Source of the DNA: Athripsodes cinereus
Taxonomy: Eukaryota > Arthropoda > Insecta > Trichoptera > Leptoceridae
DNA length: 64,000 nucleotides
Direction of reading: 5' to 3'
NCBI GenBank assembly: GCA_947579605.1
Contig: OX388305.1
Span: 37,027,542 to 37,091,541, forward strand
Shown here: piece after piece, positions 3,721 through 25,307 of the stretch
Layout: each line of letters starts with the position of its first letter
Position numbering within the stretch: position 1 is the first letter of the stretch
Made by a program: the position numbers and the translations under genes
The notes under the pieces: generated by a model
Told to the model about the DNA's origin: nothing
The model's database searches: none
The model's input: the letters and a program-made list of their open reading frames with translations, nothing else

Positions 3721-4093
3721 CTTTGTTGATTTTGCTATGTAAATGATGGTGTGCAAGAAGAATAAAATAAATAAATGATCATTATTTATGAAATTTTATG
3801 TTATCGCATAATTTAAGTATCATTATGTTGTATTGTTGCCCGAGGAAGACCACCAAAAAGATGAAAAGATAGCTGTTTTTCAACATCATAATTATTATGA
3901 GGCATCAACTTCCGAACTAACATCGATGATCTGAAATAATTTCGGATTATTTTTCACCTAAGAATAAGAATCCATTTATAAGCTTATAATTAAAGTTTAT
4001 TTTATCGACCGACGGTTCTTGGTGGAAGTCCATATTAATAATTTTTTAAAATGAAACGCAATATATAATTATTCCACAATTGACTTTATTTAT

Positions 4094-4141
4094 TTTTGCG
4101 AGCCGGCTTTCAAGAGCTTCCACTCTCATCGTCAGGCAAAA
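4094..4141 (-). ncRNA. Hammerhead ribozyme, family 1, left arm
   Basis: Minus strand: TTTTGC, CTGACGA, an extra T, stem II GAGAGT/GCTCTT around loop GGAA, GAA, stem III palindrome AGCCGGCT, C17, then GCAAAA closing stem I. Relative to the right arm the only change is C to T at the loop-closing pair of stem II, which costs one base pair. All core nucleotides are intact. Predicted cleavage is 3' of C17, between plus-strand positions 4100 and 4099. Confidence 0.8.
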
Positions 4142-4167
4142 GTAAAAATGTTAAACTTAAACTTTAC

Positions 4168-4215
4168 TTTTGCCTGACGATGAGAGCGGAAGCTCTTGAA
4201 AGCCGGCTCGCAAAA
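4168..4215 (+). ncRNA. Hammerhead ribozyme, family 1, right arm
   Basis: Stem I is TTTTGC (4168-4173) with GCAAAA (4210-4215). The core is CTGACGA (4074+100 to 4180), followed by one unpaired T (4181). Stem II is GAGAGC (4182-4187) with GCTCTT (4192-4197) around loop GGAA. GAA is at 4198-4200, a 3-bp stem III AGC/GCT is at 4201-4208, and C17 is at 4209 with predicted cleavage after it. Conserved CUGANGA, GAA and the A15.1-U16.1 pair are all present. Stem III is far too short for an efficient monomer, as in the dimer-forming hammerheads linked to Penelope-like elements. Confidence 0.88.
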
Positions 4216-4269
4216 ATAAAGTCAATAGTGGAATAATTATATATTGTGTTTCATTTTAAAATTTTTAGC

Positions 4270-5170
4270 TTATAGCATAAATATCGCTCGACGTCGAGTG
4301 ACCTGAGCGACCATGAAGTTGCAGTGAGTGGCGAATGTCACCTCGGATATCGTGAACAACTTTGAGCGTTTTATGACCCAAATGTCATCATAATGGCGCC
4401 ATTTTCGTAAGATTCATTCGCGATCTGAAAAATCTGCACTAACTATTTTAATTTCTCTTCCATTTCACTTCTTGAACTAAAAAAATATGATTTTCTATTT
4501 TGGAAAATTGTATACGACAAGAATACACCATAATTACGATTAACTTCGCAATTGTTTTGACAACTTCCATCACTCAAACGTCAAAGTAACTGTCAGAGCG
4601 ATAATCACCCTGCTATGATTTCGGTTGTTCGGTTGGGGAGCCGGATAATTTACCGACAACAATTCACCGAGAGGACAAATTACCGAGAGGATAATTCACC
4701 GACAGGATAATTCATCGACGTACATTTCACCGACAGACAATTTGCCGACAAATACTAAACAATATAATCACGTTTTGTAATGTTGTATTTTATTGTTTAT
4801 GTATTTGTGTAACAACATATTTAAACACCCACTACAAGAAACAATCTGTCTTTTTTAAAAAAAGAACTTCCGACCACGCCAGAATTATATTATTCGTATT
4901 TATCGGCAAATTGTCTGTCGGTGAAATGTACGTCGATGAATTATCCTGTCGGTGAATTATCTTCTCGGTAATTTGTCCTCTCGGTGAATTGTTGTCGGTA
5001 AATTGTCCGTCGGCAAATTGTTGTCGGTGAATTTTCCTAGACCCGTTCGGTTGTCACTCGACGACATGCCTGAACGCGACAGTGCGAATCGTCGGGTGAC
5101 TCGCTCCGGCTTCGTGAACGATCGGAGCGTCGTCGAGTGATCACTCGGCGACTGTATGAACGCTGCCCTG
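4270..5170. mobile_element. Degenerate hAT-like element with CGTCGAGTGA words
   Basis: Both ends contain inverted or repeated copies of CTCGACG and GAGTGATCACTCG (4288-4330 and 5050-5155). The right end, read on the minus strand, begins CAGGGCAGCGTTCATACAG (5170 leftwards), a typical hAT-type CAGGG terminus. The left end is unclear. The Foldback-like element 4636-5044 sits inside it. Classification is an inference from the terminus only. Confidence 0.45.
4636..5044. mobile_element. Foldback/MULE-like element, 409 bp
   Basis: The element begins GGGAGCCGG and ends with the inverse CCTAGACCC. A perfect 9-bp target duplication GTTCGGTTG flanks it (4627-4635 and 5045-5053). Each arm of roughly 120-130 bp is a chain of 16-18-bp variants of GGATAATTCACCGACA, inverted between arms, around an AT-rich centre. 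Terminal inverted repeats made of short tandem repeats plus a 9-bp duplication are the description of Drosophila Foldback (MULE-related) elements. No coding capacity. Confidence 0.8.
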
Positions 5171-5480
5171 CGAATGTATTCGTGTCTATGATCATAAATC
5201 TTTTACTATGGTTTTGAATGTCATTTCATCTGTCAGTGTGAATTTGTGGGGACGCGATTTTATACATTGTGTATTATTTTGTGTGAATGTTTATTGCATT
5301 ATTACGGAAGCAAGAAAAATAAAATATTTGTGCGGTGTATCTTAAATTACATCTAATAATCATGTCTAAAAGGGTCCCGAGATCTCAGTATGTTAAAGTA
5401 GCTCGGCTGTCATCACAATACCACTGCCTTTAGTAAATATTTTATATCGTGTTGATTGGTAAGGAACAATACTCTCCGCC
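5171..5480 (+). other. 5' flank of zinc-finger gene 1
   Basis: AT-rich DNA between the hAT-like terminus and the first ATG of the zinc-finger gene. It must hold the promoter and 5' UTR. I do not see a convincing TATA box or initiator, and no upstream intron is required. Confidence 0.4.
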
Positions 5481-6968
5481 ATGGAGGGACAGAGTGTGGT
5501 ATCTAGTCATCAGAGAGAAATTGTTATCGACATTGAACCGCTGACGGAACACATTAAACCAGAACCTTTGGAGGAAGACTATGAAGCAGAATATGATGAG
5601 TACAATGAAGAATATGAGGAGGATGCTACATATAGATCAGGAGACGATGGAGAAAGGGATGACTCCTTTGCAATTGAACAAGATGATAATGACTTTTCTT
5701 CACATTGTGTAAAGGAGGAACCTCACTATCCTGAGGATATGTGTGACACTACGTTGGATGAAGAAACTTCCGACAATTCAAAGCCAGAGATAAATGTTTC
5801 CAAATCAGAACTTACGGTGCACGCTCTTCCTGGTACATCTACTGAATGTGACAACATGATATATTTTGAAATTCCAGCCATGAACAATTCTTGTAAATGT
5901 GTTGTGTGTGGAAGTTTGTTTGTTGGCAGTAAAAAAGGGAGTGAGTATATCTGCAATAGTTGTCTCAAAAAGGAGGATTTCACCAAAGATATGCGTACCC
6001 AGAAAATTAGTAAACCAATTACATCTAGTGACCATGCTTCAGAGTCGTCTGAATCAGATAATTTGTTGATGAAAGGAGAGCTGGATGGGCAGTATGAATG
6101 TGATATTTGCTTGAAGAAATGTATCAGCACTTCTGATCTCAATAAACATAGGCTCGTACATAGCGGGGAGAGACCGTTTGGATGTCAAGTCTGTCGTAAA
6201 AGATTCAATCAACTGTCTAATCTCATACGACACAAGTTAACTCACAGTCAAGAGAGACCATTTCAATGTGAAGTATGTTCCAAAACTTTCACTCAGTCTT
6301 CTTATTTAAAAAAACACAACTTAATTCACAGCGGAGAAAAACCTTATGGCTGTGTTGTCTGTTTGAAGAGATTCAGCGATTACTCAACACTCTCCAAACA
6401 TAAGTTGATACACAGTGGAGAGAAACCTTATTGTTGCGGTATTTGTTCAAAAACATTTAACCAAGTGGCGAGCTTACGCAGACACGAGATCATCCATCGT
6501 GACCAGAAACCTTTCCAATGTACCGTTTGCTTGAAAAGATTTGCACAAACACATCATCTGAAAAGACACTTAAACGTTCATCGAGTTAAATTTGTAAATA
6601 TGACACGAATGAAATACAGGAAACCAAAACCAAATCAGAAACAAGTACAAATCACTCGAGGAGTGGGACATCAAATGACTGAGGATGCAGAAGTACATCA
6701 TGGAGAAGAAACATTTAGAATAGAAGACAGTATTATAGGTGGAATAGTAGATGAAATTAATTGCGTTGCAAGTAATGAAGTAAAATCTATTGTAGATGAA
6801 ACAAATAATTGTGTTAAACCTAAAGAAAACACTCTTCCCGCAAAGGGTTTTGAAATAAATCATGGTGTGAGTCCTGGAAAATACAGTAAGAGTGATTGTA
6901 GAGTAAATCGTAAAATAAGTCACAAAGAAAGTCATACAAGTGTCGAAATGATCTTTAAAACTAGTTAA
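5481..6968 (+). CDS. C2H2 zinc-finger protein, six fingers
   Basis: A single-exon gene of 495 residues, probably a nuclear DNA-binding transcription regulator. The start is the first ATG in frame and has a strong Kozak context (CCGCCATGG). Residues 1-130 are acidic and carry REIVIDIEPL and sumoylation-like IKPEP and VKEEP sites. Residues about 137-163 hold a separate cysteine cluster (CKCVVC...YICNSC) that could bind zinc. Six canonical C2H2 fingers occupy about 205-367, joined by SGERPF/SGEKPY-type linkers (the last is degenerate, RDQKPF). The tail 368-495 is Lys/Asn-rich without a domain. The N-terminal motif recurs in the gene at 11598-12875. There is no ZAD, BTB or KRAB domain. Target genes are unknown. 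Confidence 0.9.
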   Translation: MEGQSVVSSHQREIVIDIEPLTEHIKPEPLEEDYEAEYDEYNEEYEEDATYRSGDDGERDDSFAIEQDDNDFSSHCVKEEPHYPEDMCDTTLDEETSDNSKPEINVSKSELTVHALPGTSTECDNMIYFEIPAMNNSCKCVVCGSLFVGSKKGSEYICNSCLKKEDFTKDMRTQKISKPITSSDHASESSESDNLLMKGELDGQYECDICLKKCISTSDLNKHRLVHSGERPFGCQVCRKRFNQLSNLIRHKLTHSQERPFQCEVCSKTFTQSSYLKKHNLIHSGEKPYGCVVCLKRFSDYSTLSKHKLIHSGEKPYCCGICSKTFNQVASLRRHEIIHRDQKPFQCTVCLKRFAQTHHLKRHLNVHRVKFVNMTRMKYRKPKPNQKQVQITRGVGHQMTEDAEVHHGEETFRIEDSIIGGIVDEINCVASNEVKSIVDETNNCVKPKENTLPAKGFEINHGVSPGKYSKSDCRVNRKISHKESHTSVEMIFKTS

Positions 6969-7322
6969 ACCATTTTGTGTTTAATTTGATGTACAGTATT
7001 TTCTTTTTATTTTATCTGCCATTTAATATACTAAGTAGTGAAAAAATAGGGTTAAAGTATATTATATGAAATACCTTTAATACTCATAAGGTTTATAAAA
7101 TGATTTTTTGTATTTTTCAAATTATATTTGATTTGTGTCCCTCTTATACTATATACTCTATATAAATTTATTCGGGCAATGTACTGTTTAAATTCCAACT
7201 TAAATATTTGAGTGATAAAAGTTACACTTTGTCACAATATATAATTTTTTTTTTTTTTTTTTGATAATAAACAATATAAATATAATTAAAAAACACTATT
7301 ACTTTCACAAATTATATAAAGA

Positions 7323-7362
7323 GTTATAAGTACTTTTCGGACATCCGTCCATCATCAGTAAC
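7323..7362 (-). ncRNA. Hammerhead ribozyme, family 2, left arm
   Basis: Minus strand: GTTA, CTGATGA, extra T, GGAC-GGAT-GTCC stem-loop II, GAA, stem III palindrome AAGTACTT, A17, TAAC. It is identical in every position to the right-arm copy. Cleavage is predicted 3' of A17 (plus-strand position 7327). Confidence 0.85.
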
Positions 7363-7393
7363 AACTTAGAACTTCTAAGTTGTGTTCTAAGTT

Positions 7394-7433
7394 GTTACTG
7401 ATGATGGACGGATGTCCGAAAAGTACTTATAAC
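7394..7433 (+). ncRNA. Hammerhead ribozyme, family 2, right arm
   Basis: Stem I GTTA (7394-7397) pairs with TAAC (7430-7433). The core CTGATGA is at 7398-7404 and the extra T at 7405. Stem II GGAC/GTCC with loop GGAT is at 7406-7417, GAA at 7418-7420, stem III AAG/CTT with a two-base loop at 7421-7428, and A17 at 7429. All conserved positions are present. Stems I, II and III differ in sequence from the other two families but keep pairing. Confidence 0.87.
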
Positions 7434-7507
7434 TCTTTATATAATTTGTGAAAGTAATAGTGTTTTTTTTTTTTTTAATTATATTTATATTGTTTATTAT
7501 CAAAAAA

Positions 7508-7967
7508 TCAATATGAACTTCCACAGTGTTTGCTCTTCAAAAGTAGAAAAGTTATAATTTTTTAGTGGTGATTGCCCAAGTTTTGACAACTTGTTGTTGA
7601 CTCTAAATTACAGTCAAAATAAATTGTTGATTATTGTTAATAAACAATTGCTGTCACTGTTTTTTTTAAATTATATCAAGTTAAAATGGCGTTGTTTTGC
7701 CTTAACAACAATTTTGCATAAATTTTATCTATAGATATGACAAAATATAACACTTTTGCAACATAGATAAATATGCCATTAAAAAGTGCACAAAGAGAAG
7801 TACAATACTATGTTCCTAAATCTCATTGGCCAGAATTCCGCACAGTATAGTTTCCTTCCAACACACAGATATATCCTCAATGGATATCTTAACCAGACAA
7901 GTATCAAGGAAACAATTATTAATTTCACTTATTTTAGAGGCATTTACTATGTAACAATTTCTAGACA
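7508..7967. other. Gene-free AT-rich interval
   Basis: Low-complexity sequence between two inverted repeats. A 62-codon open stretch (7786-7974) has no recognisable motif and runs into the next hairpin, so I do not call it a gene. Confidence 0.45.
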
Positions 7968-8157
7968 TTTTTAAATAAAATGTTTAAACTTGAATCACTA
8001 TGTTTATTTGTTACATTAATTTAAATTACGCTATCGCGATTTCAGTGCACTTGCACCATTGACGAGCTTTTCAAGACTAATGAAAATTACTTAAATAGAC
8101 TTAAATTAATGTAACAAATAAACATAGTGATTCAAGTTTAAACATTTTATTTAAAAA
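7968..8157. mobile_element. Hairpin MITE, 57-bp perfect arms
   Basis: The arm TTTAAATAAAATGTTTAAAC...ATTAATTTAA (7968-8024) is repeated inverted at 8101-8157 without mismatch. The unique centre (8025-8100) contains TATCGCGA and a hammerhead-like but defective string (TTGACGA). No clear target duplication. The superfamily is undetermined. Confidence 0.8.
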
Positions 8158-8221
8158 AACAATTATTATTCTATGCAAGATTAGTATCTTTGCACAGTAT
8201 CTTTATTTGTATCACATTGTT

Positions 8222-8395
8222 TTCTTCTTCTTCGATGGCCCTACAGCTCATATCGAGTTTTGGCCTCCATCAGCCCTCGCCTCCAACTCCTCCTGTCTGC
8301 CGCTGCGGTTTTCCAATTTATGACTTGTAGAAGTTGGTTTGCGTCTTTTCTCACCTCATCCCCCCATCTCAGCCTAGGTCTGCCAACTCTATCAC
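8222..8395 (-). mobile_element. RTE-like LINE C-terminal fragment
   Basis: The minus strand encodes GRPRLRWGDEVRKDANQLL followed by NWKTAAADRRSWRR. This is the hallmark end of RTE-type non-LTR retrotransposon proteins (GRPR.RW.D then a DR..WR block), ending in a short CTT-type microsatellite (TCTTCTTCTTCG on the plus strand). 5'-truncated, non-functional. Confidence 0.75.
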
Positions 8396-8823
8396 ATTGT
8401 TTTATAACTTGGTAATTATGTATGCTCCTTATTGTGCAATAAAGTTTATTATTATTGTCTTTGAGTGCATTTTACAAATTCTTTAAAAAAATTAAAATGT
8501 ATCACCCTCTTTTGTGAACACAATGTATAAATGCAGACACCGTTACAGCAGATAACATATTCCTATCTTTGTATTAACTTAAATGTTACATGTATTTATA
8601 TGATTGAATATTTTATTTTCAAATGCAATTGAGCAATTGACCTATATACACTCTTTTGCGGAGAACGCAGAAGCGAATTCTCCTTAGTCTTGCGTATGCC
8701 CATGCAAATTTACATAAACTAACTGTTAATTTACATAAATGTTCACATAATTTAAATAATGTCAAAGGAGACTCAGTAATATAAAAAAAAATATTAACAT
8801 CAATATAGTATTTACATATTAGT

Positions 8824-9090
8824 GATTTATTTATTTATTTAATACAATATACGGCAATTGCCTTTACAAGTATACAGATAAACTTTCCAATCTATAAAAA
8901 TATAAAACAATATAAAAAAAACAGACAAAACATTCTCCAGTTAAAGTCAAAAATTAAAATTTAAATACAAAACACAATAAATTCATTAAAAGACAAATTC
9001 CAGTCACTAGTCATGATAAAAACAAAAAATAATGATAATAATTTTAAAATAATTCTAAAACTGCACAAAAATACATGGGAAAATCTACTA
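8824..9090 (-). mobile_element. Probable LINE 3' UTR fragment
   Basis: It starts with a TTTATTTATTTATTTAATAC block (the A-rich tail read on the minus strand) followed by 'ggcaattgcctttacaag', the same layout as other LINE tails in the window (32050, 51138, 60330). No reading frame survives. Confidence 0.4.
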
Positions 9091-9096
9091 GGTCTG

Positions 9097-9307
9097 CAGG
9101 GCTACTCTTGACAAAACTAAACACGATCTTAATCTAGTCTTGATCTTGATCATACGACGCACGAAGTAACTATTGGCCAAAAATACACACAAACCGATCG
9201 CGCGTTAGTGGTAGCGCGGTGTTTTTGACCATAGTCCCTTTGTGCGTCGTATGATCAAGATCAAGACTAGATTAAGATCGCGTTTAGTTTTGTCAAGAGT
9301 AACCCTG
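9097..9307. mobile_element. CAGGG-ended MITE, 211 bp
   Basis: Inverted arms of about 80 bp begin CAGGGCTACTCTTGACAAAA on the left and CAGGGTTACTCTTGACAAAA on the right (inverse). Subterminal copies of GATCTTGATC and AATCTAGTCTTG are present. Flanks TAGGTCTG and CTGGTCTG share 6 of 8 bases, compatible with an aged 8-bp hAT-type duplication. Relatives occur at 44929-46231, 50430 and 56020-56275. Confidence 0.75.
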
Positions 9308-9459
9308 CTGGTCTGAAAGAAGCGATTCGATTAATTTAAACTTATATACTAACAGAGATGTGCCAAATACGTCTACAACATCCGCATTTTTGTTTCCAAG
9401 ACGCTGCAATCTGTTGACAGACGAGTTATAATCATAAGAAGTGTTGGAACTATTACATA

Positions 9460-9880
9460 ATTGATGTAATGAATGTGCGATTTTGGATATTCGCGAATGT
9501 GAATATTTGTTGCCGACATTCACAGATGTGAATATTGACTTGCACGAGCCTGTCGGTGCTGGCTTTACTACAAGTTTAAATTTCTATAATTGCTCAGACA
9601 ATAAAAATTTCTAACCCGCCCCCCCCCCCCCCCATCGCCGATATTTCAAAATGGTATAGGAATTTAAAATATTTCAAAAACTTCTCGGTTTTCTTAAAGA
9701 CTGACGATAGGAGCGGAAGATCTTGAAAGCCGGCTCGCAAAAATAAATAAAGTCAATAGTGAAATAACTATGTATCATGCTTCATTTTAAAAATTATTTT
9801 TTATAGAATATTTTCATGCAGCACCTTTTTCTACAATGTACTGGGTAAGTATCCGGTACTTTTACCGAATGTCCGATACA
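9460..9880. mobile_element. Third copy of the GCGAATATTCGC MITE, interrupted
   Basis: From TTGATGTAATGAATGTGCGA it follows the element at 29031-29425, including the poly-C tract (about 9618-9633) and the TCTACAATGTACTGGGTAAG block. It lacks the right terminus. A 98-bp truncated hammerhead-bearing insert (9700-9797) interrupts it. Confidence 0.75.
9700..9797 (+). mobile_element. Truncated copy of hammerhead family 1
   Basis: It matches 4174-4262: CTGACGA, GCGGAAG, CTTGAAAGCCGGCTCGCAAA, AAGTCAATAGTG and the TTCATTTTAAAA end. It starts exactly at the ribozyme core, so the 5' strand of stem I is missing, and stem II is mutated (AGGAGC/GATCTT). The ribozyme cannot fold canonically. The junctions are fixed by comparison with the uninterrupted sequence at 29235-29250. 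Confidence 0.8.
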
Positions 9881-11102
9881 AATACGATCTGTTCATACTT
9901 TTCATCCTGTGCTTTCTCTGCCATGTTGTATGTGGTCAGATGTATTAAAGAAAAAAATAGTTAAATGTAAATTAATAGTTATTAAAAATAAATGAACAAA
10001 ATCTTCATAGGCACACCAAAGTGCGTCTGTTTTTTTATGGTTCTGACATTTGATACCATTTTTTAGAGTTTACACAAATAATTCATAAAAATTATGTTTA
10101 ATGATAATATTTTTTTCCATCATCCCGAGTGATCATTCATGATGAAATGTCCATTCATACTTTTTACTCTGGATGATTCATCCTTAGTGATCACTCCGAG
10201 TGACACGTTTGAGTGCCCCTCAATGTTGAAAATCTAAATCTCTTAACAGTATGTATTTTTTTTTCTTTCATTTATGGCATAGCATCCTACAAGGATGATT
10301 TGTGCCAAAAACAGTCTCTAAGTATAATTAAATCGTCAAGAAGATAGTCATCACAGAATAATAAAATTGGCCTTCATCGATTTGAGAAGGGACAAATGGG
10401 TTGATTCCGATGTCATACTAAGTAATGATTCAATATTCAAACAGTATGTATTGTGTACTATTAAATTTTATCTATTTCAGATTACTTTTATTGTATTGTG
10501 GTGTTAAAATATTCAACTTGTAATGGAGGTATAAGTAATACTAAATATATTATATTTGTAGTTTTTTGTATTTGTAAGGATAAATGTTTCTTAATACTGT
10601 TATGTATAGGTTCCTATGTGAAATAATCTCAAAATATTGAAATAAATTATTAAGAATAAGCTTTAGTGTTGTTTTATTTTTGTGTTGATTTTCCTCAGAT
10701 TTAAATAGGTCTCCCATCTGTGTCTGTGAAAGGAAAGTTTTCATAAAAACCATGTAAAAGACTCTGGATCCAAAGTGAAGCAATGTGAATGCTACTTTAC
10801 CTATATATTTATTGCATGCAGTTAGTCAGCTAGATGCCCAATTAATTATTGGAAATGACAGGATTAAGTTATTTATGTAGTCAAGAATACAATTGATGTT
10901 AACAAATATATTTCGTTAAAATAACAGTTGTAATTCTATAAATAACTTTCTAAAAAATATTTTGGAATAAATTCATCAGGAATATTGAATAAAACTCATT
11001 GTCTTTTCTTGCAAAATTTATTAACTTCCTAAATTAGAATGACATGGCCATAGGTGGCAGTGCTTATGGCACATTCCTCGTACACCTTTGAAAACTATAT
11101 AT
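9881..11102. other. Gene-free interval with hAT-like remnant
   Basis: Mostly AT-rich sequence. Positions about 10118-10220 contain repeated GATGATTCATCC / GAGTGATCACTC words ending in AGTGCCCCT. They resemble the termini of the element around 49126-49991 and are probably a hAT-like remnant. No gene seen. Confidence 0.4.
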
Positions 11103-11288
11103 CTATGATTTTTTCTTAAAACTCTGTATGTTGCCTGAAGACTGGTCCATCAAATGTTTCAAGAGATGGTTAGCCAGGTCACCTCTGTGATGAAAGAAAA
11201 TTGAGCACTTCTCGCAAACCATGCGCTCAGATACATACAGAGCATTTCTTTTAAAATGGTCAGTTATTTTGCTTTCCTTTTTATTCAT
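11103..11288 (-). CDS. Small one-finger C2H2 ORF
   Basis: A 61-residue ORF on the minus strand with one well-formed C2H2 finger at about residues 24-44 (CEKCSIFFHHRGDLANHLLKH). It is preceded by KITDHFKRN and followed by a Ser/Lys-rich tail. It is divergent from the nine-finger gene, with about 310 bp between start codons, so a bidirectional promoter is possible. It may be a genuine microprotein gene, a terminal exon, or a relic of a larger zinc-finger paralogue. Confidence 0.45.
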   Translation of the reverse strand: MNKKESKITDHFKRNALYVSERMVCEKCSIFFHHRGDLANHLLKHLMDQSSGNIQSFKKKS

Positions 11289-11597
11289 TTTGATAAAAAA
11301 AAAAAAACAAAACGATTAACACGGTACACAACTTACTAAAGACGTCCTGACGAATCACACATAAATTATAAATATGGTCCTTCCTATAATACTAATTATT
11401 TGGTACAATTAAAACCATAGATTACACAGTTGACAGAACAACTGTCACGAACTGTCATTGTTGTAGTGGAATCGCTGTGTAGTGCCTGTGTTTATTTTAT
11501 TTTTTTGAAAATATGTATATCTGATAATTTATTTATAATTTGTAAATATTTTAACATGAACTGTACAAATTTTGTTCAATCGCGATACTGAAAAAAC

Positions 11598-12875
11598 ATG
11601 GAGGACAAAGGCAATGTTTTGAATTACCAAAAAGAGATTGTAATAGAAGTAGAACCACTTGTGAAAAATATCAAATCAGAACCTGAAGATGAAGTTTACA
11701 ACAATCCCAAGTACATGCCATATAATGATGATGAAACTGGAGTACATAAGTCATTTGTGGAGACTCATTCAGTCCAAGTTAAACATGAACTCTTGAAGGA
11801 AGAATGTGGAGATAGTGGTCTTAGGACAACTTCTTTCAATGGTGAACTAGAGGAATCAGATACAAATATACAATATGAGAGGGTCAATGATGCTGGTACA
11901 AGTGCCCAGATAAAAAACATATGTGATATGAGTACTTCATTTGTGGATAAGGAAAGTGGTTACACAGATCAAATAAATCCCTTTGGTGAAGTTGATAGTT
12001 ATGAGCACGATGCAGAAAGTGAGTGTGAAGAAATCGGCGCTGTTGATGGTGAAGGTAATATAAATCCTTTAGCTAGTTCATCTTCTGTACGTAGAAGAAG
12101 AGCACGCGGTGATAAGACTCCACTAGAGTGCGAAGTCTGTCATAGAATGTTCAGTAGGAGCTCACGCTTAATGGATCATAAGCGTATTCACAGTGGTGAA
12201 AAACCTTATTTGTGCAATATATGTATGAAGAGATTCACAAGCTCTTCTAGATTAAGGGAACATAAATTTGTTCACAGTGATGTAAAACGTTTTGAGTGTG
12301 ATATTTGCAATAAAAAATTTAATCTCTCGTACGAACTGAAAAAACATAAAGTGATACATAGTGGAGAAAAACCTTTTGAATGTGATGTTTGTTTGAAAAG
12401 ATTTGTCAAATCCTCAACATTAATTGAACATAAACGAATTCACAGTGGTGAAAAGCGTCACGAGTGTGACATTTGTTTGATGAAATTTACTCAGGTATCT
12501 ACTATGAAAGCTCATAAGCGACTGCACACGGGTGAGAGGCCTTTTGAGTGTGACATTTGCACTAAAAGATTCAATCTCTCGCATGACTTAAAAGTTCATA
12601 AAATGAGTCACAGTGGAGAAAAACCTTACGAATGTGATATTTGTTTGAAGAAATTTATTAAAACCTCTTCTTTAGTCGAGCATAAGAGAATTCACAGTGG
12701 AGAAAAACCACACGAGTGCGATGTTTGTATGAGAAAATTCACTCAGTTATCTACACTGAAAGCGCATAGACTTGTTCATACAGGTGAGAAAGCGTACCAG
12801 TGTGATATTTGCTATAAAAGATTTACACTTTCTCACAATTTAAAGAAACACAGAACACTCCACACTGGATATTAA
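11598..12875 (+). CDS. C2H2 zinc-finger protein, nine fingers
   Basis: A single-exon gene of 425 residues, likely a nuclear sequence-specific DNA-binding protein. The N-terminal ~170 residues are acidic and begin with KEIVIEVEPL and IKSEP, matching the start of the six-finger gene 4.6 kb upstream, so the two are tandem paralogues. Residues about 161-172 are basic (RRRRARGDK), a likely nuclear localisation signal. Nine canonical fingers fill residues about 176-423 with SGEKPY/TGERPF linkers. Fingers 3-4-5 and 6-7-8 are successive copies of a three-finger unit, and finger 9 restarts it. The protein ends two residues after the last zinc ligand region. An AATAAA-type signal lies near 13630. Confidence 0.92.
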   Translation: MEDKGNVLNYQKEIVIEVEPLVKNIKSEPEDEVYNNPKYMPYNDDETGVHKSFVETHSVQVKHELLKEECGDSGLRTTSFNGELEESDTNIQYERVNDAGTSAQIKNICDMSTSFVDKESGYTDQINPFGEVDSYEHDAESECEEIGAVDGEGNINPLASSSSVRRRRARGDKTPLECEVCHRMFSRSSRLMDHKRIHSGEKPYLCNICMKRFTSSSRLREHKFVHSDVKRFECDICNKKFNLSYELKKHKVIHSGEKPFECDVCLKRFVKSSTLIEHKRIHSGEKRHECDICLMKFTQVSTMKAHKRLHTGERPFECDICTKRFNLSHDLKVHKMSHSGEKPYECDICLKKFIKTSSLVEHKRIHSGEKPHECDVCMRKFTQLSTLKAHRLVHTGEKAYQCDICYKRFTLSHNLKKHRTLHTGY

Positions 12876-13265: not shown

Positions 13266-13773
13266 GTATTTAAATGTCTTTTTTTTTTGTATCTTACATT
13301 TTTAATGTTATCAAGTATCTATATGTAAATATGTACATCAATGAAAAGTAGTTTTAAATTATTGATTTTTATCATCCAACGATGCAGTCTGTATGATTAT
13401 TGATTAATTCTTTCAGGTGCTTTATGAGTGAAATCGTATCATTTTGTGTAATATAAATGAAAGAGATTGTTTATGGGGTGTGAGATTACCATTATGCAAC
13501 CTAAATGTTTTAAATCGTAACATTGAAGTTTGTTGTTGGATGACAACTGATTTCTGAAAGAACTTAAATTTAACCATAATTGTAATTTTTGTAAGGATAA
13601 CTGTTGTTTGTTATTGTGCTCCGAAATTGAAAAAATAAAATAAACTTATAATCAGTGGCATGCTTTTCATGTATGCCAATATGCAACATGTTCCCTAAAA
13701 TATGTAAAGAATCTCAAATATGATATACTATGGTAGTAAAGATTCTAATAAAAATTCTTCAAAATTATAAATA

Positions 13774-14187
13774 CAGTGGCATCTTGACATATGAGTGCCC
13801 CAACATACGAGTTTTTTGAGATACGAGCCGTCGAGCTAGCAATTTTTTGCTTTGAAATAGGAGCAATCGGCTAAGCGGGTCAGCCACGATCACACACAAA
13901 CTGAGATCTTGTGAATGCGGGAGAGTTTCACAGTTCGTGGAAAAGAAACACCCAGAAAATGTTGCTACTCGTCGTGCATCGGAGGTATTTAATGACACTC
14001 GCCTAACTCATTTCCGGAACATTCTGAAAGGGAGGAAGAAACAAACATCCTTGGACATGATATTTTTAAAGAACGGATTAATGGCAGTTCAATTAATTTC
14101 AATGGGGAAATTTGCTTTGAGATATGAGTAATTGGAAATAAAGCAAGGTTGCGGAATAAATTAAACTCTTATGTCGAGGTACCATTG
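13774..14187. mobile_element. pogo/Tigger-like element, internally deleted
   Basis: The left end CAGTGGCATCTTGACATA and the inverted right end CAATGGTACCTCGACATA match Tigger-type termini, with TA duplicated on both sides (13772-13773, 14188-14189). Plus-strand codons from 13937 to about 14050 read HFRNILKGRKKQTSLDMIF, the usual C-terminal end of Tigger DDE transposases. The catalytic domain is gone, so this is a deletion derivative of an autonomous Tigger-like transposon. Confidence 0.85.
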
Positions 14188-14514
14188 TATACTATACTAG
14201 TATATCATATAATTTTAAGATATTTATTTATTTTAGGGCATTCTATTCATATTTGCATTTATGGAAGGCATACCACTGCATATTTACCACTCCATTTTAA
14301 ATATGCAAATATAGTATATAGCAATAATAAAATGTTGGTTATGCTATTTCTGAAAATATGTAGAGTCTACATTGTAGACATTGTGTATCATTGAATAAAA
14401 TATGTTAATTGAGTAGTTTACATGCCCTAGTTAGTATTACTGATGTTTAGAGAAAAATAAATGTAACCTATCTTATATGTATATTCTATCACCTGCTTTA
14501 AATGTGTATATAAG

Positions 14515-14665
14515 AGATCCATCCATTCCATCACAATACCTCCCATAAATGGGATAGCTAGCAGACCAACTGCTTTAAATAAACATTTATGTAGTCCTCA
14601 CCAAGCCAATCAAAGTTAAGACATTAAGGATGGGTAACAACATACCTCATCCTTGGCCTGAAGAT
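14515..14665 (+). repeat. Dispersed repeat C
   Basis: CCATCACAATACCTCCCATA, GGGATAGCTAGCAGACCAAC, AATAAACAT and GGATGGGTAACAACATACCT follow the order of the family consensus. Confidence 0.65.
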
Positions 14666-14913
14666 TTTAAATGTCTCAAAATGAAATATTTACAAATTCC
14701 CGTCTTTTTTGAATGTTCTCTAGGACCATCTAAAAAACTAGAGGTACCTACACACTGCGTAAAATTAATGTAATATATCTCTATGACATATAGATATAGG
14801 TAGGTACCACTATTGAATTTAACTACGAAAAAAGAAAATTTTATAAGAAGACCTGAAATTCACTCCAAACCTTTATAAATACATATGGTCTAAAATGTAA
14901 TGAATTGTAAGTA

Positions 14914-15417
14914 CAGTCGATTCCACTTAATTGGGACATATCGGGACTTGGGCATTTTGTCCCAATTAAGCGAATTTCACATTTTTTTTAAATTCAATTA
15001 TTTGGTTTTGGCATCTAAGGCCACTAACCAGTATTACGCACATAAAATTAAACAATGCATATTTTTTCAATGATTTTATTTTATAAACTCTTGGAATCTT
15101 TAAATTACATATAGGTAATATAAATTATCACATAAATTACAAATATGTAATATAAACCTTTAAGAAAGACAAATTCCTAATTAAAATAATAAATGGGTTG
15201 GTACATACAATTTATTTCAATGCAAAAATAAGTCTGTCTTTTGCTTTTGTAAAATTTCACTTCTACGAAATCAGCACAAAGTTAAATTTATTGTCCCAAA
15301 TAAGCGGAATGTTGTCCCAATTAAACATATAAATTTACTATTGGTTTCTTGATTTGGTTTCTGTTCTTTGAGATTTGTCCCAAATAAACGGCTGTCCCAA
15401 TTAAGCGGAATCGACTG
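14914..15417. mobile_element. pogo-like MITE with subterminal repeats
   Basis: Termini CAGTCGATTCC(A/G)CTTAAT and inverse are flanked by TA on both sides (14912-14913, 15418-15419). Inside both ends the word TTGTCCCAATTAAGCG (and CCCAAATAAGCGG) is repeated at least six times. There is no coding sequence. Tc1/mariner-pogo assignment rests on the TA target and the CAGT terminus. Confidence 0.82.
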
Positions 15418-16094
15418 TATTAACTTGTTCCCTGTTGGGAGAATATCTGCCCACCAGACCCGCCCTCATAGCACAGAACAAGTTAATACTTATGACACCG
15501 GCTGTGAAAGCTTAACCTGTCCGTGAGTGAATAAAGAAAAAATAAAAGTGTATGGCAGAGTGAATTAATTCAACTTTCACTTTTTGAATATTTTTTTATT
15601 GCATGTTATAGAAAATGATCCCTAGAATAAATGTTTATAACGAACCAACTCTCAAATATTAATAATAACGAAGTTATATAACAAAAACAATTTTGATACG
15701 TCATGTCTGCTCCGGTATTGTCAACAATGGGTTCAACATAGGAATATTTATTATTATTAAAAATATTTATTTTTATTTGTTTTTAACAAAAACTTATGTA
15801 GGTACTAAAAACTAATTAAATTGTCCAGAATTAGCACAAAAAGTAAAAAAAAAACCTAAAACACTCCATAAAATAACACCCATAGCGCACGAACGCACGC
15901 AGCAAAATGGTTTGCAACCGCGAGTGACGGCTAGGTATTTCAAGCAGCGGTCACGTGACATTTTGTATAGGTGATAAATAAGGTCTAAACACGCCTATTT
16001 TTGATTTTTTCCCTTGTGATTGGTAAAGTACATCTGACAGATTGGACCAATGATGAAATTGACGAATTTGGCGGGAATACCAAAATATTACTGG

Positions 16095-16160
16095 ATCAAA
16101 CGCACCGGTGCGTGCGTACTCCAGATCCCATAATATTTCTTGCACGCACCGGTGCGTTGG
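16095..16160. repeat. Pair of ACGCACCGGTGCGT palindromes
   Basis: The 14-bp perfect palindrome ACGCACCGGTGCGT occurs twice 44 bp apart (16099-16112 and 16143-16156), each near GGTACTCC/CGTACTCC. It could be an element terminus or a protein-binding site. No flanking gene. Confidence 0.6.
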
Positions 16161-16239
16161 TACTCCTTTACAGGTTAAGATCTTACTTAATTGAATTTAA
16201 ATAATGTATATTCTTATTCGGATAATAAAACTGACAGAG

Positions 16240-16415
16240 AAAGAGCAGATGTTTGGGAATATAAAGGCATGGTTACGCTGATTAATTCTAAACGATGGGG
16301 TTAGTTGAGTTAAAGAAAAATCAGTATGCATGTATCAGAAGTTGTATGAATGCGGAGGAATGAAATAAGTATGTAAAGTTTTCTCTGTCTACCTCACTTG
16401 AGATACGACACATGA
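16240..16415 (+). mobile_element. RTE-like LINE 3' end fragment
   Basis: Codons read LKKNQYACMRSCMNAEE and then the 'ttctctgtctacctcac' tail, homologous to the end of the copy at 51594-52400. Short, 5'-truncated. Confidence 0.55.
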
Positions 16416-16973
16416 GATTATAGATAGGTAATAAAATACTCTTTTTTTTTTAAATATAATACATTTATTTTAATAAAGTTTGATTTAAATAATAATACAA
16501 TATTCAATAATAATGTTGATACAATAATACATTGAATATGAATTTTTATACAAGATTTGTAGTCTCCATACAAAAATACAATTAGATATAGAATGGTATA
16601 AATATTACATGCTAGAACATACATAGCTATATTTTAGATGAAGTAAAGATACATCAGTTTAGCAATACTGGCAACACTATCTGCTAAAGTATAGAACATA
16701 GGATAATACGCTTGGTTTTGGTTGTCTAAACTGTATTATTTAATGAAAATAAAGCTTAGAAATGTATTTTTTACATAATTGTCACCATCATAGTAGTAAG
16801 CATAACTGTTTATCTATGTAAATCATAACGGCGCCGTCCTCGAATAACGTAACCAATGATTTGACTGCGTGTAATGTACATAAAGGTCATCATAAAAAAG
16901 TAATGTTTCACGTAACCGCTATTAAAGATTAGCATTTTCAACTATATTTTGTCCTCCTTCAATGGCTGCATCC

Positions 16974-17157
16974 AGATAGTAGGATGTGAACGTCAATCAA
17001 TCTTCAATCATTCGGAGCATTCTCCGAAGAAATATTTCAATGAATGCCTTCGTAACCCGTATAAGGACGGGAAACGAAGGCATTCATTTGAATATTTCTT
17101 CGGAGAATGCTCCGAATTGTCACCGAATGATTGATTGACGTTCGCATCCTACTATCT
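16974..17157. mobile_element. Hairpin MITE, ~85-bp arms
   Basis: AGATAGTAGGATG(T/C)GAACGT begins each inverted arm. The arms also share CGGAGCATTCTCCGAAGAAA and GAATGCCTTCGT around a 15-bp centre. The arms differ by a few small indels. No target duplication could be fixed and no coding. Confidence 0.8.
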
Positions 17158-17159
17158 GA

Positions 17160-20100
17160 CGCAACCAATACGACAAGATGATGTATGAAATTTCAAAAAC
17201 ATTTCTATGAGCCGTATTGATCTAATACTTAATAAAATTTTGCTATTTAACACTGCCTTTTGTATGCAAAAACGACAAAAAACTCGACAATTGAAGTGCA
17301 AATGATGAATTACGTCATATTTTACAAGTGTATTCAAAGGAATTACAGATGGGTAGGTACTTAGGCCTTATAACCACACAACAAATCCTTATTCAAAGGC
17401 AAAAGTCACAATAAAGAACATTTTGGTGTCAATACTATAATAAATGTAAATCAAAACAGGTGACCAATAGTTCATTATGTTACTTTTGGATATTCAATCA
17501 AAAGTCGGATCATGCACAAGACTAACTTTTACTTTTATTTGATGAATAATTTAATTACTAAAAAAATTGTAAACACACTGATAATTTGCAATGTCTTCAG
17601 ACTTTATTGGTTTAATATTTGTATTATGTGTTTTATTCGTAAAATGTGCTATTCGTCCGCTTGGTAATAAGTAAATAAAATAATTTTGTAATACCATCCA
17701 CGTTACCAAAATTTTTGAAATTGCTCTCATTTTTTGATAGATTCCATACATCTTTTGAACCAGCTTATTTGATATCTAATATTTAAGGATTAGGACACCA
17801 ATTCGACTTCCTCCAGATAATAGTCTCACATTGTGTGAATGATTTTCTTACTCTTATAGTTTTTAGACTTTTGTCTTTTTTCATTATTAGTATTTATTTT
17901 TGGAACTACAGAGCAAGATAACCATACCTATCTGACATTATTAATTTTTCAAAAAAGATATTTTACGGTGAAACGTTGAATAAAATCAAAGAGTCTCGCA
18001 TCTGCCTGTATATTGCAATGACTTTCTGAGTATATGCCACATTAATTTATTTGATATGATAATATTGATTCTAAACAACACCGTCTCCATTATAAATGGG
18101 TTTACAATTACGAAACCATTTTGTTGCTTGTTGCTTGCATCAAAATTTTTCAAAATTAAATACTATTAAAAGTTATATTTACTGTACACATTGAAATGTT
18201 TCACACTTCCCTTAGAGTGTTTACAATATAAAAGTTATTGATAAATTTCAATTTCTTTACATGATCCTAATTTAATAATAAAAACTAACATTAAAACATT
18301 ACATAATTAGAACTAATATTACAATATTTGATATGGACGAATTATAAGACTTAATACTCTATTTATCCAAAGAACAAATAAGATGGTAGAGATGCAGTGT
18401 GCTGAGGCTGAGGAGAAAGTTATAATTCTGTTATGAAGTTTACCAGAGTCTGTCAATCACGTATGTCAATATGGCCGAATGTTAATATACCTAGTTTCAT
18501 ATAAGAACTATAAGTCAAAATCTTGAAGTACTTAGCCCTCGTTATCTCTTCATTATTATTTGCTCTTTGGCTTGGCTCTGAGGCTTGTGAATATTTTGTG
18601 ATTTATCCAACAGCAAACTGTAAATGATACAATTATTGATATTTGTATTAAGTCAATACCAACAGGTATACGGCCTTATGAATTAATAACAACTATAAAT
18701 ATGACAAATCAATTTTTGCTGTTCAAAAAATTAATTTAGAACAACATTTTTTTTTATAATGTCACTTGAAATTGCACAATGCCATCCATTAGTAAAATTA
18801 AATACAATATTTTATCCAAAGACATAAATACTCATCGACTTTATTTTAATTATGATCTGCCTTGATAAATATGCAAATAAAGATCTGTCCTGAAATGTTA
18901 CTTCTTTTTATGACACGATGATCATAGATAAACATGACATCCATAGATGTTTTTATGTTTACAGAATATAATGTAACTATCTCATCCAAGACTGAGATTT
19001 ACAAATATATTAAGTTTTTATAATATTTAAACCTCAACACAACATATGATAGTTCATTAATTTATTTATCTACGATGATAAAAGCTTTTATTGCAATTTA
19101 TTAAAATAAATTACGTAGCGCTATTTTGTGACACAGCTAGAAAAACAATTTAAGTGAACATTTGAATTAATGAGACAGCTGACTCATTGAAGTTTCATAC
19201 ATCTTTTATTGTACTGATATGTCGGTAAAGTAATTTCTCAAACTCAATTTCGTTAGTTACTTAAAATGGAGTTGTTACTGTATCACAAAATGGCGTTATG
19301 TACAAAGACATTTAGTAAATAATGGAAATATTATTAATAATATATTATGAATAAATGATAAATTTACAGTAATAATAATATTATGTTGTATACTAATAAT
19401 GTATAGTTATATGATATTTACATTAGGTGTGAATGCTTTTAACTAGTGCATGAATCAGAAAAATACAAATATATGTCTACGGAACAAAATATACCTACTA
19501 ATAAAATAAATCACAAGAATATAATATGAGTGATGATATAATATTTTGCGGTTGATCACTGTTTATAAGAGGGTATAAGTATTGTAAAATATTTCAAAAA
19601 TAAATTACAAATATTTATTACCTCCACAAGATTATTGATTGCGAATCAGCTTTTATGAGGTACCCTTTAGAAACTTCTATGGTAGATGATGGATGTTTGT
19701 CTATGGTGGTCAGACATTTTACTTTTACAACACTTTTTGACCAAAATCAAGAAAGAAATACTATCTCAGATAGCACATTTTTCAAGGGCACAGGCTTGTG
19801 ATAGTAAATATAATGCCTTTGGTGGTGACAGATAACATCTTAGGTGAGAGAAAGAGATAGAAAGATGATTTTAATAGTAGTGAGAAAGAGATGGAGAAAA
19901 GTACCTTGAAGATATGTAACAGGATAGAGGAATACTTGAGAATTTGCATTTGTGAAAGATTGCCATGTGTGTGAAGTTTCATAAATAATCAGTTGAATTG
20001 GTTGATTTATATGGTCATTTTAATTTCTACTACTTTCACCAAACTCATTGTTTCAAGTACCTTTCAAATAATATTTCACTCTCAACATCATACTAATGTA

Positions 20101-20705
20101 AAATTATGTGGAAGTAATAAACATCTATGTCTTATTTCCAAAATAAACTTACAAACACAACATTATATAAGTAACACATCTCAACATTTAAATAACATTA
20201 GAAATGATTTAAATTGAAGTTGTTATCAATAAAGATGTTGTCCACACTTTAAAATTATATGTGGTTACTTCTATCCCTGTAAGAGGCAGGAGAACACATT
20301 AATATTTAATTTTAGATTTTTTTTTCTGCTCTGAAACTAGATGAAGTTTTATAATTTAATATTTTAGAAATTTTTGGTCCGAAATATTTTTCATTTAGAA
20401 CACACTTGTTTGTGTTATTAAGTTACAATCGGGAATCACAATTTAAATACATACATAGCTATTACAACAAACATATAGTTTTTGGTTATTTTGGTAATTA
20501 CTAAATGTTTTAGCATATTCTGACAATGCATATTTCCACTGCCTGTAAAAAATATTAAGACCCAATTTACAATGGATAAAACAGGATCTTGAAATTCTAT
20601 CTTCCAATGCAGTAATTTGTCAGCCGCTGATTGAATTGAATAAATACATCTCATTATAAAAAGGCCTGTGGGCCATTGATGTATCAATAAATAAATAAAT
20701 TATAA
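17160..20705. other. Gene-free interval
   Basis: Long AT-rich intergenic DNA. All open frames are short and lack motifs or codon bias. I see no RNA gene or bounded mobile element. Confidence 0.5.
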
Positions 20706-20708
20706 TTC

Positions 20709-20900
20709 GAGTTCGTCGGTAGCCTGGAGGTAGAGTCTCAGCCTCGTGAACATGGGGTTCGTGGTTCGATACCAGGTGCCGGCAAACTCCCCTTTCACGC
20801 CACAAGCTTTTAGTACTGTGAAAGGTGTATAAGGTTGTATTTATAACAAAAGGTTGGGTTTATAACAAAAACCCAGATATATCTTTTTAAAAAAAATATA
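20709..20900 (+). mobile_element. tRNA-derived SINE, family A
   Basis: An A-box-like TAGCCTGGAGGTAGAG and a near-perfect B box GTGGTTCGATACC (20761-20773) form a pol III promoter. They are followed by a tRNA-unrelated body (CCGGCAAACTCCCC, AAGCTTTTAGTA) and an A-rich tail after AACCCAGATATATC. Other copies lie at 26752-26882 (-), 34684-34868 (-) and 52719-52905 (+). Confidence 0.85.
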
Positions 20901-21034
20901 TAAATGCCAATTGTTTAATCAAAATATTTCAAAATTAAAAAAAATAAATTCAGAAAAGCCTGGTCTTAACGATTAGTTTGTTTGTATTAAATAAATATCT
21001 ACACTGTATTATAAAAATGGTGATTTATCTCTTA

Positions 21035-21110
21035 AAGTAGGGTAGCTGGTAGACTAATAGCATGTAATAAACATGATGGTCTTCCTTTCCACGCTAAAAA
21101 ATATTTAAAA
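21035..21110 (+). repeat. Dispersed repeat C, fragment
   Basis: GGGTAGCTGGTAGACTAA, TGTAATAAACATG and GTCTTCC follow the family order with many substitutions. Confidence 0.5.
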
Positions 21111-21954
21111 AAACCCCGATTGTAACTTAAGTTTTATAGATAATATAGGTACATATTAATTACTAGTTGTAATATACCTACTGATCTATGATATACACAA
21201 TACATAATATACATACAGCAATATAGTATATAAATAGTTTGTTGTGTAAAATATACAGGGTACTTTTTTTAAAAACTAGACTTGTATAAAACACCCTCTA
21301 TAATAGTAACAATCTGCAATAGATAACATTAACAATATGGTACACAAATACAATATTTCAGTTTTGAACTACTCTCTTTTCATAAGCATATTGCTGACTG
21401 TAAGAGTCAATTTTGGATTATGTTTTTTTTTTTTATTAAAAGTTAAACAATATTGATTCACATAAAAACTTGCGATCCCTATTCTGCTTATTGAATTCTG
21501 ATTTCAAACTCGCATTCACATGTAATCGGGCTAGTTGAAACATACAGCAAAGACAAATTTCAAACATGTGTTTCAAAAGACATGGTGTCAATAACGTTAC
21601 ACATAGCAAAACTATGCACTTTTTGACCAGTGTCTGTGAGGTGTAAGGTCCATATTCCTATAAAAATCAAAGCTGTTAAACTAACATGTTGCCAGTACGT
21701 AATAACATTGTATAATCACAGTAGGTATATCCAGTACAACCATTGTTAGAGAGGGACAGCTCTCTAATAATATTAGTATCTCAGGTGGCATGTTTATCAA
21801 GGAAGTGCACAGTTTTGTTATTTATAATGTCATTGCTTGGATTAGAATAGGCAGAAAGTACCTAGACTCAATGGCCCTCTCACCCAACTAGAACAGGGGG
21901 AAGAAAATGCATGTATTCTTTTCTCTCTATAGTTACTACTACTACTATACAGTC

Positions 21955-22150
21955 ACAGTATAGCCAGCAGACCAGCTGCATGTAAAAAACATGCAAGCTG
22001 TCTTCTCCTTTAGAATGGTTGGGAAATCTCATCGCTTAATTTAAGATGTAAAATGTCTTTATTTTTTCAAACACCTGCCTTTTACAGAGCACATAAAACT
22101 TATAGCAAAAAGTGGTAGACCAATTCTTGCTAAGTGCTCCATGGAAATAC
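21955..22150 (+). repeat. Dispersed repeat C, longer copy
   Basis: TATAGCCAGCAGACCAGCTG and GTAAAAAACATGCA are followed by AAATCTCATCGCTTAATTTA and the 3' part GTAGACCAATTCTTGCTAAG, shared with 61060-61260. Confidence 0.65.
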
Positions 22151-22389
22151 GGCTATGTGTAGTTGTGTACTCATAGTTGATCAATGTTATAATAATCTTC
22201 CATTTATTGTCACTATTCTTACAAAAGGAAACTAGATTTTATGACTAGAGATCAAACGATAAATAATAATAAAAAGGTAAATCTGTTATCTATTATTCTA
22301 TAATGCTTTTCCTGCCATCTTATCACATTGAAAAATAAATATTTGAAAACATTTTCACTAAATAACCAATAGGGCAATTGCATTAAATA

Positions 22390-22570
22390 AAAAAAAACGC
22401 TGCTTTATTCCACTATGAGAATTGTTTTAATTGTTAAAACATTTTCAACTACAATATAGTCATCGTACTGTATCAGTATTGTATTGTTACTGATGATGAC
22501 TACAGTGTAGTTGAAAACGTTTTAACAATTAAAACAACATAGTGGAATGAAACAGTGTTTTTTTTTTAAA
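22390..22570. repeat. Long inverted repeat with hammerhead ribozyme (family 3)
   Basis: Arms of about 75 bp are inverted copies: AAAAACGCTGCTTTATTCCA... on the left, with its complement ending ...GGAATGAAACAGTGTTTTTT on the right. The right arm has an intact ribozyme, while the left-arm copy has a broken core. Same layout as families 1 and 2, different sequence. Confidence 0.82.
22484..22528 (+). ncRNA. Hammerhead ribozyme, family 3
   Basis: Stem I TTGTTA (22484-22489) pairs perfectly with TAACAA (22523-22528). CTGATGA is at 22490-22496 with an extra T at 22497. Stem II GACTAC/GTAGTT with loop AGT is at 22498-22512, GAA at 22513-22515, a minimal stem III AACGTT at 22516-22521, and T17 at 22522. 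All conserved core bases are present. On the left arm the core is interrupted (TCGTACTGTATCAG in place of TCATCAG). Confidence 0.85.

Positions 22571-25265: not shown

Positions 25266-25307
<42 letters not shown>

Follow-up and report, generated by a model that had tools for sequence, protein, structure and literature searches.

Introduction

Hammerhead ribozymes in Penelope-like elements (PLEs), inverted pseudo-long terminal repeats (pLTRs) and tails are already known. The protein of an Anolis PLE cuts and extends both target strands in vitro, starting internally near the beginning of the open reading frame (ORF), and this reaction produces a tail and can dispense with hammerhead cleavage (PMC11167929). 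The same 2024 study regards the later steps of Penelope integration as yet to be validated (PMC11167929). Here we describe three palindromic insertions, each representing a family (E1, E2 and E3), in a 64,000-nucleotide stretch of the caddisfly Athripsodes cinereus (GCA_947579605.1, contig OX388305.1, positions 37,027,542 to 37,091,541 of the forward strand; hereafter the window), together with their relatives elsewhere in the genome. Judged from sequence, each palindrome can be read as a pair of copies of a PLE mRNA 5′ end, placed head to head. We consider it probable, at roughly 80%, that the palindromes are independent PLE insertions made by two-sided (twin) target-primed reverse transcription with internal initiation.

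Results

The window was scanned with a pattern consisting of stem I of at least 4 bp, CUGANGA, zero or one extra base, stem II of at least 3 bp, GAA, a stem III (A..U) of at least 2 bp, H17 and the closing strand of stem I. Exactly five sites were found, at 4174-4209(+), 4100-4135(−), 7398-7429(+), 7327-7358(−) and 22490-22522(+). All five fit every required position of a minimal type I hammerhead (CUGANGA/GAA core, three stems, H17), two of them in E1, two in E2 and one in E3; in each, CUGANGA is followed by a single extra U, and stem III is self-complementary. In 100 first-order Markov simulations the mean was 0.03 sites per window (maximum 2); with one core mismatch allowed, the real sites scored 13-17 and the best of 20 simulations scored 12. 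A preliminary description of this DNA had proposed hammerheads in three inverted-repeat families, and both that proposal and the stem sequences it listed agree with the scan. It had also placed hammerheads on the opposite arms, which holds for E1 and E2 but not for E3, where the copy on the opposite arm is broken.

The same description had named the absence of a covariance-model hit as grounds for abandoning its claim, and that is literally what the Rfam search of the window returned: no match at gathering threshold and no hammerhead among 14 matches at E≤10, a negative that was obtained with no known PLE hammerhead as positive control and so means only that this hammerhead type goes unreported here. 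Searches with the three short palindrome stretches gave 6, 2 and 2 matches, none of them a hammerhead. When monomers were folded in isolation, stems I and II formed in E1 and E3 with extra pairs within the core, while only stem II formed in E2; no fold energy was clearly better than those of shuffled sequences (z −0.4 to −1.3). Transcripts of the whole window palindromes are predicted to form long hairpins (−89 to −169 kcal/mol), so that ribozyme activity from these copies is doubtful.

Further families carry the same architecture. Two hammerhead families, F4 (L029) and F5 (L078), came from a scan of 215,477 bases fetched for other reasons, and three more (L135, L136 and L137) from the 350 bases upstream of each of five PLE ORFs, scanned at a relaxed setting (0.06 sites per simulated 64 kb) and in addition with two extra bases permitted. 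Over the resulting eight families pairing was canonical in 87 of 88 cells (four core-adjacent pairs in each of stems I and II, three in stem III), compared with 53 on average and 67 at most when the 3′ letters were redealt. Stems were placed by hand from the scans, with L138 (core TTGAAAA) and L139 (truncated) left out; a MAFFT alignment of hammerheads across families misplaced the stems and was not used. Because the families came from scans that demanded paired stems, the 87/88 count is not an independent test of pairing, and it shows, at the level of sequence, that many different stem sequences satisfy the hammerhead fold. A better test is given by the hammerheads found upstream of PLE ORFs. 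In all eight families stem III is self-complementary, a property compatible with action as a dimer. Within families, core and stems are kept in 63 of 78 E1 arms and 55 of 58 E2 arms, and old copies have uncompensated changes. The preliminary description had named such changes among genomic copies as a refutation, and inside a family this is literally what is seen; between families pairing is kept. The decay in old E1 copies is as for dead copies.

In all eight families the extra U, A9 and G10.1 spell AUG, and in those inspected by eye short upstream ORFs follow it. The PLE 5′ end at L138 (G000:C13:23483528-23483877) has, read by eye in the last 150 or so bases before the ORF, TTGAAAA replacing CTGANGA, with stem II (GTCAAG/CTTGAC) intact and a palindromic stem III (AGCGCT); it is a possible natural hammerhead in which C3-G8 has changed to U3-A8. 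Exact patterns of each family had no match in IMG/VR. A looser pattern, CTGATGAT-N8-24-GAAAACGTTTTA, matched 4 IMG/VR and 23 GTDB stretches (viral and prokaryotic contigs), and none of these 27 chance core matches had both stems at the scanner minimum lengths.

The arms lead to a PLE. The sequence that follows one E2 arm, ATGAACTTCCACAGTGTTTGCTCTTCAAAAGTAGAAAAG, opens an 816-aa ORF at L076 that runs without interruption and contains a reverse transcriptase (RT) domain (RVT_1, 5.8e-14) and a GIY-YIG motif that falls below the Pfam cut-off (E=0.02). The GIY-YIG core is kept in 16 aligned relatives chosen from the 120 listed of 329, several of them with precomputed PF01541 matches; the named relatives among those 120 are mainly insects, with one sea star. 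L076 has two direct arms, at the ORF start and after the ORF end, both 100% identical to the 160-letter E2 arm used for comparison. Inverted arms occur in L079-L083 and in L135, a full-length element with an inverted arm directly before it, so that both pLTR arrangements are present. A protein search of the genome with the 816-aa ORF yielded 3361 candidates, of which 55 were scored as matches, with identities of 42 to 100 per cent; at least 14 of the 55 span residue 1 to 806 or beyond with no stops. The five PLE ORFs whose upstream regions were examined begin MSFH or MNFH, and their 5′ ends comprise three canonical hammerheads, one variant core and one truncated copy. In three families the distance from the predicted cleavage site to the AUG that opens the ORF downstream was measured, at 62-79 nt.

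Translated by eye, the tails read MNFHQEPS... in E1, MHFHKVTLENIE in E3, MNFHKVT in F4 and MKCYKVNA in F5. Since E1, E2 and E3 have post-cleavage motifs and an ORF-start tail (MNFH / MHFH) in common, they look like lineages of one PLE group, contrary to their earlier description as unrelated. The preliminary description had also held that no Penelope protein is left. This is true of the window, where none of 14 ORFs of at least 120 aa is PLE-like and none of the 9 scanned has an RT match, but not of the genome. Its broader proposal of Penelope-associated minimal hammerheads in retro-inserted, non-autonomous copies was borne out.

Insertion anatomy was examined over 716 Mb in 160 contigs. For E1, each of the 40 candidates scored out of 1558 was parsed as a row; L088 and L091 represent a single insertion and were counted once, which left 39 loci for tests. 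For E2, 29 full palindromes were taken from the 40 scored of 170 candidates, 10 of the 39 loci fetched being set apart as not full palindromes; five of these ten (L079-L083) are inverted pairs in which the centre is longer and there is a single tail. For E3, 18 rows were parsed from the 40 scored of 978 candidates (20 loci fetched, repeated places counted once). The E2 query included the tail and was biased towards tailed copies, whereas the E1 and E3 queries had no tail, so fair tail counts come from E1 and E3 only.

Within each family the arms were alike between loci and the centres differed. Distinct combinations of arm end and filler were found in 39 of 40 E1 rows, 24 of 29 E2 rows and 17 of 18 E3 rows, several of the repeated E2 centres being plain microhomology joins. 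At L046, L072, L092 and L113 at least 9 nt of the filler come from the element, in some cases from the ribozyme, which suggests template jumps or end-joining synthesis at the junction. Exactly one arm was tailed in E1 40/40, E2 29/29 and E3 16/18, together 85 of 87 rows, and in none of the 87 were both; the optional tail at one end that marks PLEs is accordingly present. The outer ends lie at two start sites, and the tail is the stretch of about 40 nt by which one arm runs into the PLE ORF.

Target duplications of at least 8 bp flanked 26 of 39 E1 loci (control mean 0.13, maximum 1), 18 of 29 E2 loci (0.84, maximum 4) and 7 of 18 E3 loci (0.24, maximum 3). The duplication lengths measured ranged from 7 to 16 bp, most of them falling at 8-13, and a few nucleotides of the element may be counted in. 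The untailed E2 ends carried an A run of at least 9 in 8 of 24 scorable loci; the same tract within tailed arms measured 5 or 6 in all 27 scorable arms and reached 9 in none. In 47 of 58 E2 arms the 5′ end lay within −3 to +3 of one A, and in the autonomous sequence TATTTT stands at −34 of this A, the position of a TATA-like box. The E2 RNA 5′ end would lie at the palindrome centre, at the A of AGTTCTAAG. Arms reaching further upstream than the usual centre occur in L079-L083 and L108, as would be expected of RNA begun earlier or in a tandem copy.

We propose the following route. PLE transcription would start just upstream of the element's own hammerhead. At an AT-rich target, the PLE protein would make cuts in the two strands some 8-13 bp apart, as the observed duplications suggest, and both 3′ ends would prime reverse transcription in the same RNA region near the ORF start. 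By the observed end positions, one strand would prime about 40 nt inside the ORF and yield the tail, the other near the AUG; in E2, priming at the start sites is supported by slippage at the A tract. Both cDNAs would extend to the RNA 5′ end, usually through an uncut hammerhead, and their ends would be joined by short filler or microhomology into a palindrome whose arms stand head to head around a newly made centre. In such palindromes the ribozyme would be a passenger, with its selected role in full elements.

Three other routes to a palindrome were weighed against two-sided priming. The first, which we consider unlikely, is that a single target-primed cDNA snaps back at the RNA 5′ end and copies itself, the hairpin then being opened. 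The arms do start at similar positions in most loci: they differ by at least 4 nt in only 1 of 39 E1 loci, where the reference stops at the usual centre, and by less than 4 nt in 20 of 29 E2 loci, and filler of at least 9 nt derived from the element is found at some centres (8 E1 and 5 E2 loci). In 9 of 29 E2 loci, however, the arm starts are unequal by at least 4 nt, and the second outer end has a start site of its own, with A-tract growth in E2.

Less likely still is self-priming, proposed for Adineta vaga, in which the 3′ end of an antisense PLE transcript folds back and is copied into head-to-head arms; this explains head-to-head polarity and junction palindromes (PMC3846280). Arms made by fold-back should end alike on the outside, yet one is tailed and the other untailed in 85 of 87 rows, and the E2 A tract grows at the outer, target-side end. 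The unequal E2 arm starts and the untailed arm of L108, which extends to −44, also stand against it, and target duplications require two ends joined to the target. One tail, outer A-tract growth and unequal 5′ ends are thus not predicted by antisense self-priming, and two-sided priming fits the insertions better.

The third route is spread of the palindrome as a unit, a non-autonomous ribozyme retroelement (retrozyme-like or MITE-like), which we hold to be very improbable. The first-look candidate numbers are high (1558, 170 and 978), length is fairly constant and a unit would inherit a one-sided tail as well. On the other hand, new centres mark almost every insertion, the arms match autonomous PLE 5′ ends, some arms reach upstream of the usual centre, and the two arms of an E1 insertion agree at subfamily markers: for three such markers, 8, 7 and 6 loci had the marker in both arms against 1, 1 and 2 with it in a single arm, and in shuffling of E1 partners the observed closeness of arms was matched in 0 of 2000 trials. 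The direct tandem units of retrozymes, copied as units, are replaced here by inverted arms with centres remade at nearly each insertion. A propagating palindromic family, considered on account of E1 copy number, was set aside in view of the differing centres. Nor do the palindromes appear to copy themselves, as ribozyme-only retroelements suggested in the preliminary description would: the centres differ while the arms are shared, and E1 markers are mostly in both arms. That the sites are chance look-alikes in hairpins such as microRNA precursors has practically nothing left in its favour: Rfam microRNA models do score the hairpins, below cut-off (MIR6136, 69 bits vs 99), but there are five sites vs 0.03 simulated per window, canonical hammerheads in 3 of 5 350-nt PLE upstream stretches vs 0.06 per simulated 64 kb, and elsewhere not one of 27 chance core matches that forms both stems at the scanner minimum lengths.

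Several observations weigh against two-sided priming. No difference in start site between strands was seen with the Anolis protein in vitro (PMC11167929), whereas here the arms nearly always differ; this asks for explanation, either by two subunits or by a second start pushed upstream of the site already copied. Among the ten E2 loci set apart, three have no inverted partner (L076-L078) and two are truncated pairs (L084 and L085). The share of tailed arms is biased in E2, and the share of palindromes is biased too, as all queries were palindromes. The autonomous source was seen directly for E2 only, the autonomous copies of E1 and E3 not having been picked out, and the transcription start is deduced from sequence. 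Neither L117 nor the E3 copy of the window has a full tail on either arm, and no target duplication was found for the window copy. Duplications of at least 8 bp went undetected in 13 of 39 E1, 11 of 29 E2 and 11 of 18 E3 loci. A-tract growth was absent from E1 (31 scorable, none above 6). Partner shuffling in E2 was without power (499/2000). At E1 variant column 119, close to the AT-rich 3′ end, 5 loci have the variant in both arms and 9 in a single arm, and many of the rarer E1 variants are confined to one arm; we interpret these as recurrent mutation or noise in the alignment.

In the 87 rows every arm spans the predicted cleavage site, the latest start being 17 nt into the E2 reference, although queries that contained the ribozyme favoured such arms. 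The sequences indicate that these 87 rows were copied from RNA uncut by its own ribozyme. A cleavage footprint was sought in E2 only: with a cleavage-joined query, among the 40 scored of 121, no locus had both arms starting at the cleavage site, and the two best places were centred elsewhere. At L140 (G000:C11:29181400-29181860), outside the 87 parsed rows, a normal tailed E2 arm with a likely duplication CATTATTATC faces an untailed arm in which AGTTCTAA is joined to CTCTTTATATAATTTG and the ribozyme is missing, the RNA 5′ end being joined, through a TAA common to both, to the bases that immediately follow the predicted cleavage site. It could be a jump from a cleaved RNA end or a chance microhomology deletion, and one case cannot decide between them. 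Conservation of the ribozyme lies in full elements. A speculative and rather unlikely role for stem III would be dimer linkage, pairing two PLE mRNAs per particle so that each target end has its own template and the two protein subunits begin at different sites.

The features of the three insertions are listed in Table 1.

Table 1. Parts of the E1, E2 and E3 insertions in the window.
Feature	Positions	Strand	Remark
E1 palindromic PLE 5′-end insertion (as read)	3989..4266	−	tailed arm is the left one (sense on − strand)
E1 target-site duplication AGCTTATA, left copy	3981..3988		
E1 target-site duplication AGCTTATA, right copy	4267..4274		
E1 tail, PLE ORF start (ATGGACTTCCACCAAG...)	3992..4037	−	on left arm only
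E1 hammerhead, left arm	4094..4141	−	pattern scan
E1 hammerhead, right arm	4168..4215	+	predicted cleavage after C4209
E1 centre filler between arms	4147..4162		differs in other copies
E2 palindromic PLE 5′-end insertion (as read)	7245..7552	+	tailed arm is the right one
E2 target-site duplication TATAATTTTTT, left copy	7240..7250		by eye, extends into T tract; script saw TTTTTT only
E2 target-site duplication, right copy	7553..7563		by eye
E2 expanded A tract (T18 on +), untailed start site	7245..7262	−	first T's may be target
E2 hammerhead, left arm	7323..7362	−	pattern scan
E2 hammerhead, right arm	7394..7433	+	predicted cleavage after A7429
E2 centre filler	7373..7383		
E2 tail ATGAACTTCCACAGTGTTTGCTCTTCAAAAGTAGAAAAG (MNFHSVCSSKVEK, N-terminus of L076 PLE ORF)	7508..7552	+	
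E3 older palindromic PLE 5′-end insertion (as read)	22389..22595	+	ends approximate
E3 hammerhead, right arm	22484..22528	+	left-arm copy broken

Two C2H2 zinc-finger ORFs (5463-6968 and 11592-12875), probably a local duplication, have an N-terminal motif in common (QREIVIDIEPL / QKEIVIEVEPL), and E2 is situated some 280 bp downstream of the former. An inverted repeat at 7968-8157 (57-nt arms, 100%, 76-nt centre) has no hammerhead and contains AACATAGTGATTCAAG, like the E3 post-cleavage motif; it is possibly a truncated PLE insertion. Other strong inverted repeats without hammerheads are at 4642-5009 (117-nt arms, 97%, with many ACCGACA repeats), 9096-9308 and 16993-17134, and hairpins of CCCGGGAA repeats, a short palindromic repeat family, are at 35785-35898 and 36574-36716. 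Open stretches at 24641-26640 (−) resemble what we take to be exons of an M1-type aminopeptidase. Fragments at 2693-3157(+) and 32423-32809(−) resemble LINE reverse-transcriptase C-termini; neither had a Pfam match.

Discussion

If integration proceeds as proposed, the palindromes record how a poorly understood class of mobile element integrates, by copying a stretch of its own RNA 5′ end, with the ribozyme in it, into both cut ends of the chromosome at the same time. The first-look searches listed 1558, 170 and 978 candidates for the three families, so that short insertions of this kind, with ends legible to the single base, may number from hundreds to thousands. Those parsed favour two-sided priming from two start sites, which may explain both the tail and the inverted pLTRs, and comparison of its two arms could serve to date each insertion. 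Annotation may mistake such hairpins for microRNA precursors or MITEs. Should stem III pair RNAs as suggested above, the function for which the Penelope hammerhead is conserved would be to bring two RNAs together for two-sided integration, cleavage being secondary, and its retention would be explained even though the palindromes are copied from uncut RNA. Neither mass palindromic PLE 5′-end insertions nor two-sided priming as their origin was found in the literature that we could search, whose partial coverage leaves absence unproven.

In LINE-1 twin priming, two primers on one RNA give inverted segments, and the second primer lands upstream in the RNA. The insertions described here resemble this in the proposed two primers on one RNA and in their inverted segments, but differ in that the start sites lie within about 45 nt of each other and both cDNAs would reach the RNA 5′ end. 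Like metazoan type I retrozymes, they carry a type I hammerhead in short non-autonomous repeats; retrozymes are direct tandem repeats expressed as circles (PMC7229834), whereas the present repeats have inverted arms, are linked to the start of a PLE ORF and are known from DNA sequence. The Penelope families of Adineta vaga have inverted head-to-head pLTRs with an optional tail on one, junction palindromes and 8-10-bp duplications as here, but few copies, explained by antisense self-priming, in place of many minimal palindromes with variable centres (PMC3846280).

Poseidon PAc of Anolis carolinensis shares several features: an RT and GIY-YIG protein, a pLTR hammerhead at the ORF start, a tail between two start sites, internal initiation and AT-rich targets, as well as cutting and extension of both strands, demonstrated in vitro there and suggested by sequence here (PMC11167929). 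It differs in that its main ORF begins at stem II, where the AUG containing the extra U is the start codon, whereas in A. cinereus that AUG is followed by short upstream ORFs in the families inspected by eye and the main AUG lies 62-79 nt past the predicted cleavage site in the three families measured; and the start sites of the two strands, equal in Poseidon PAc, are different here (PMC11167929).

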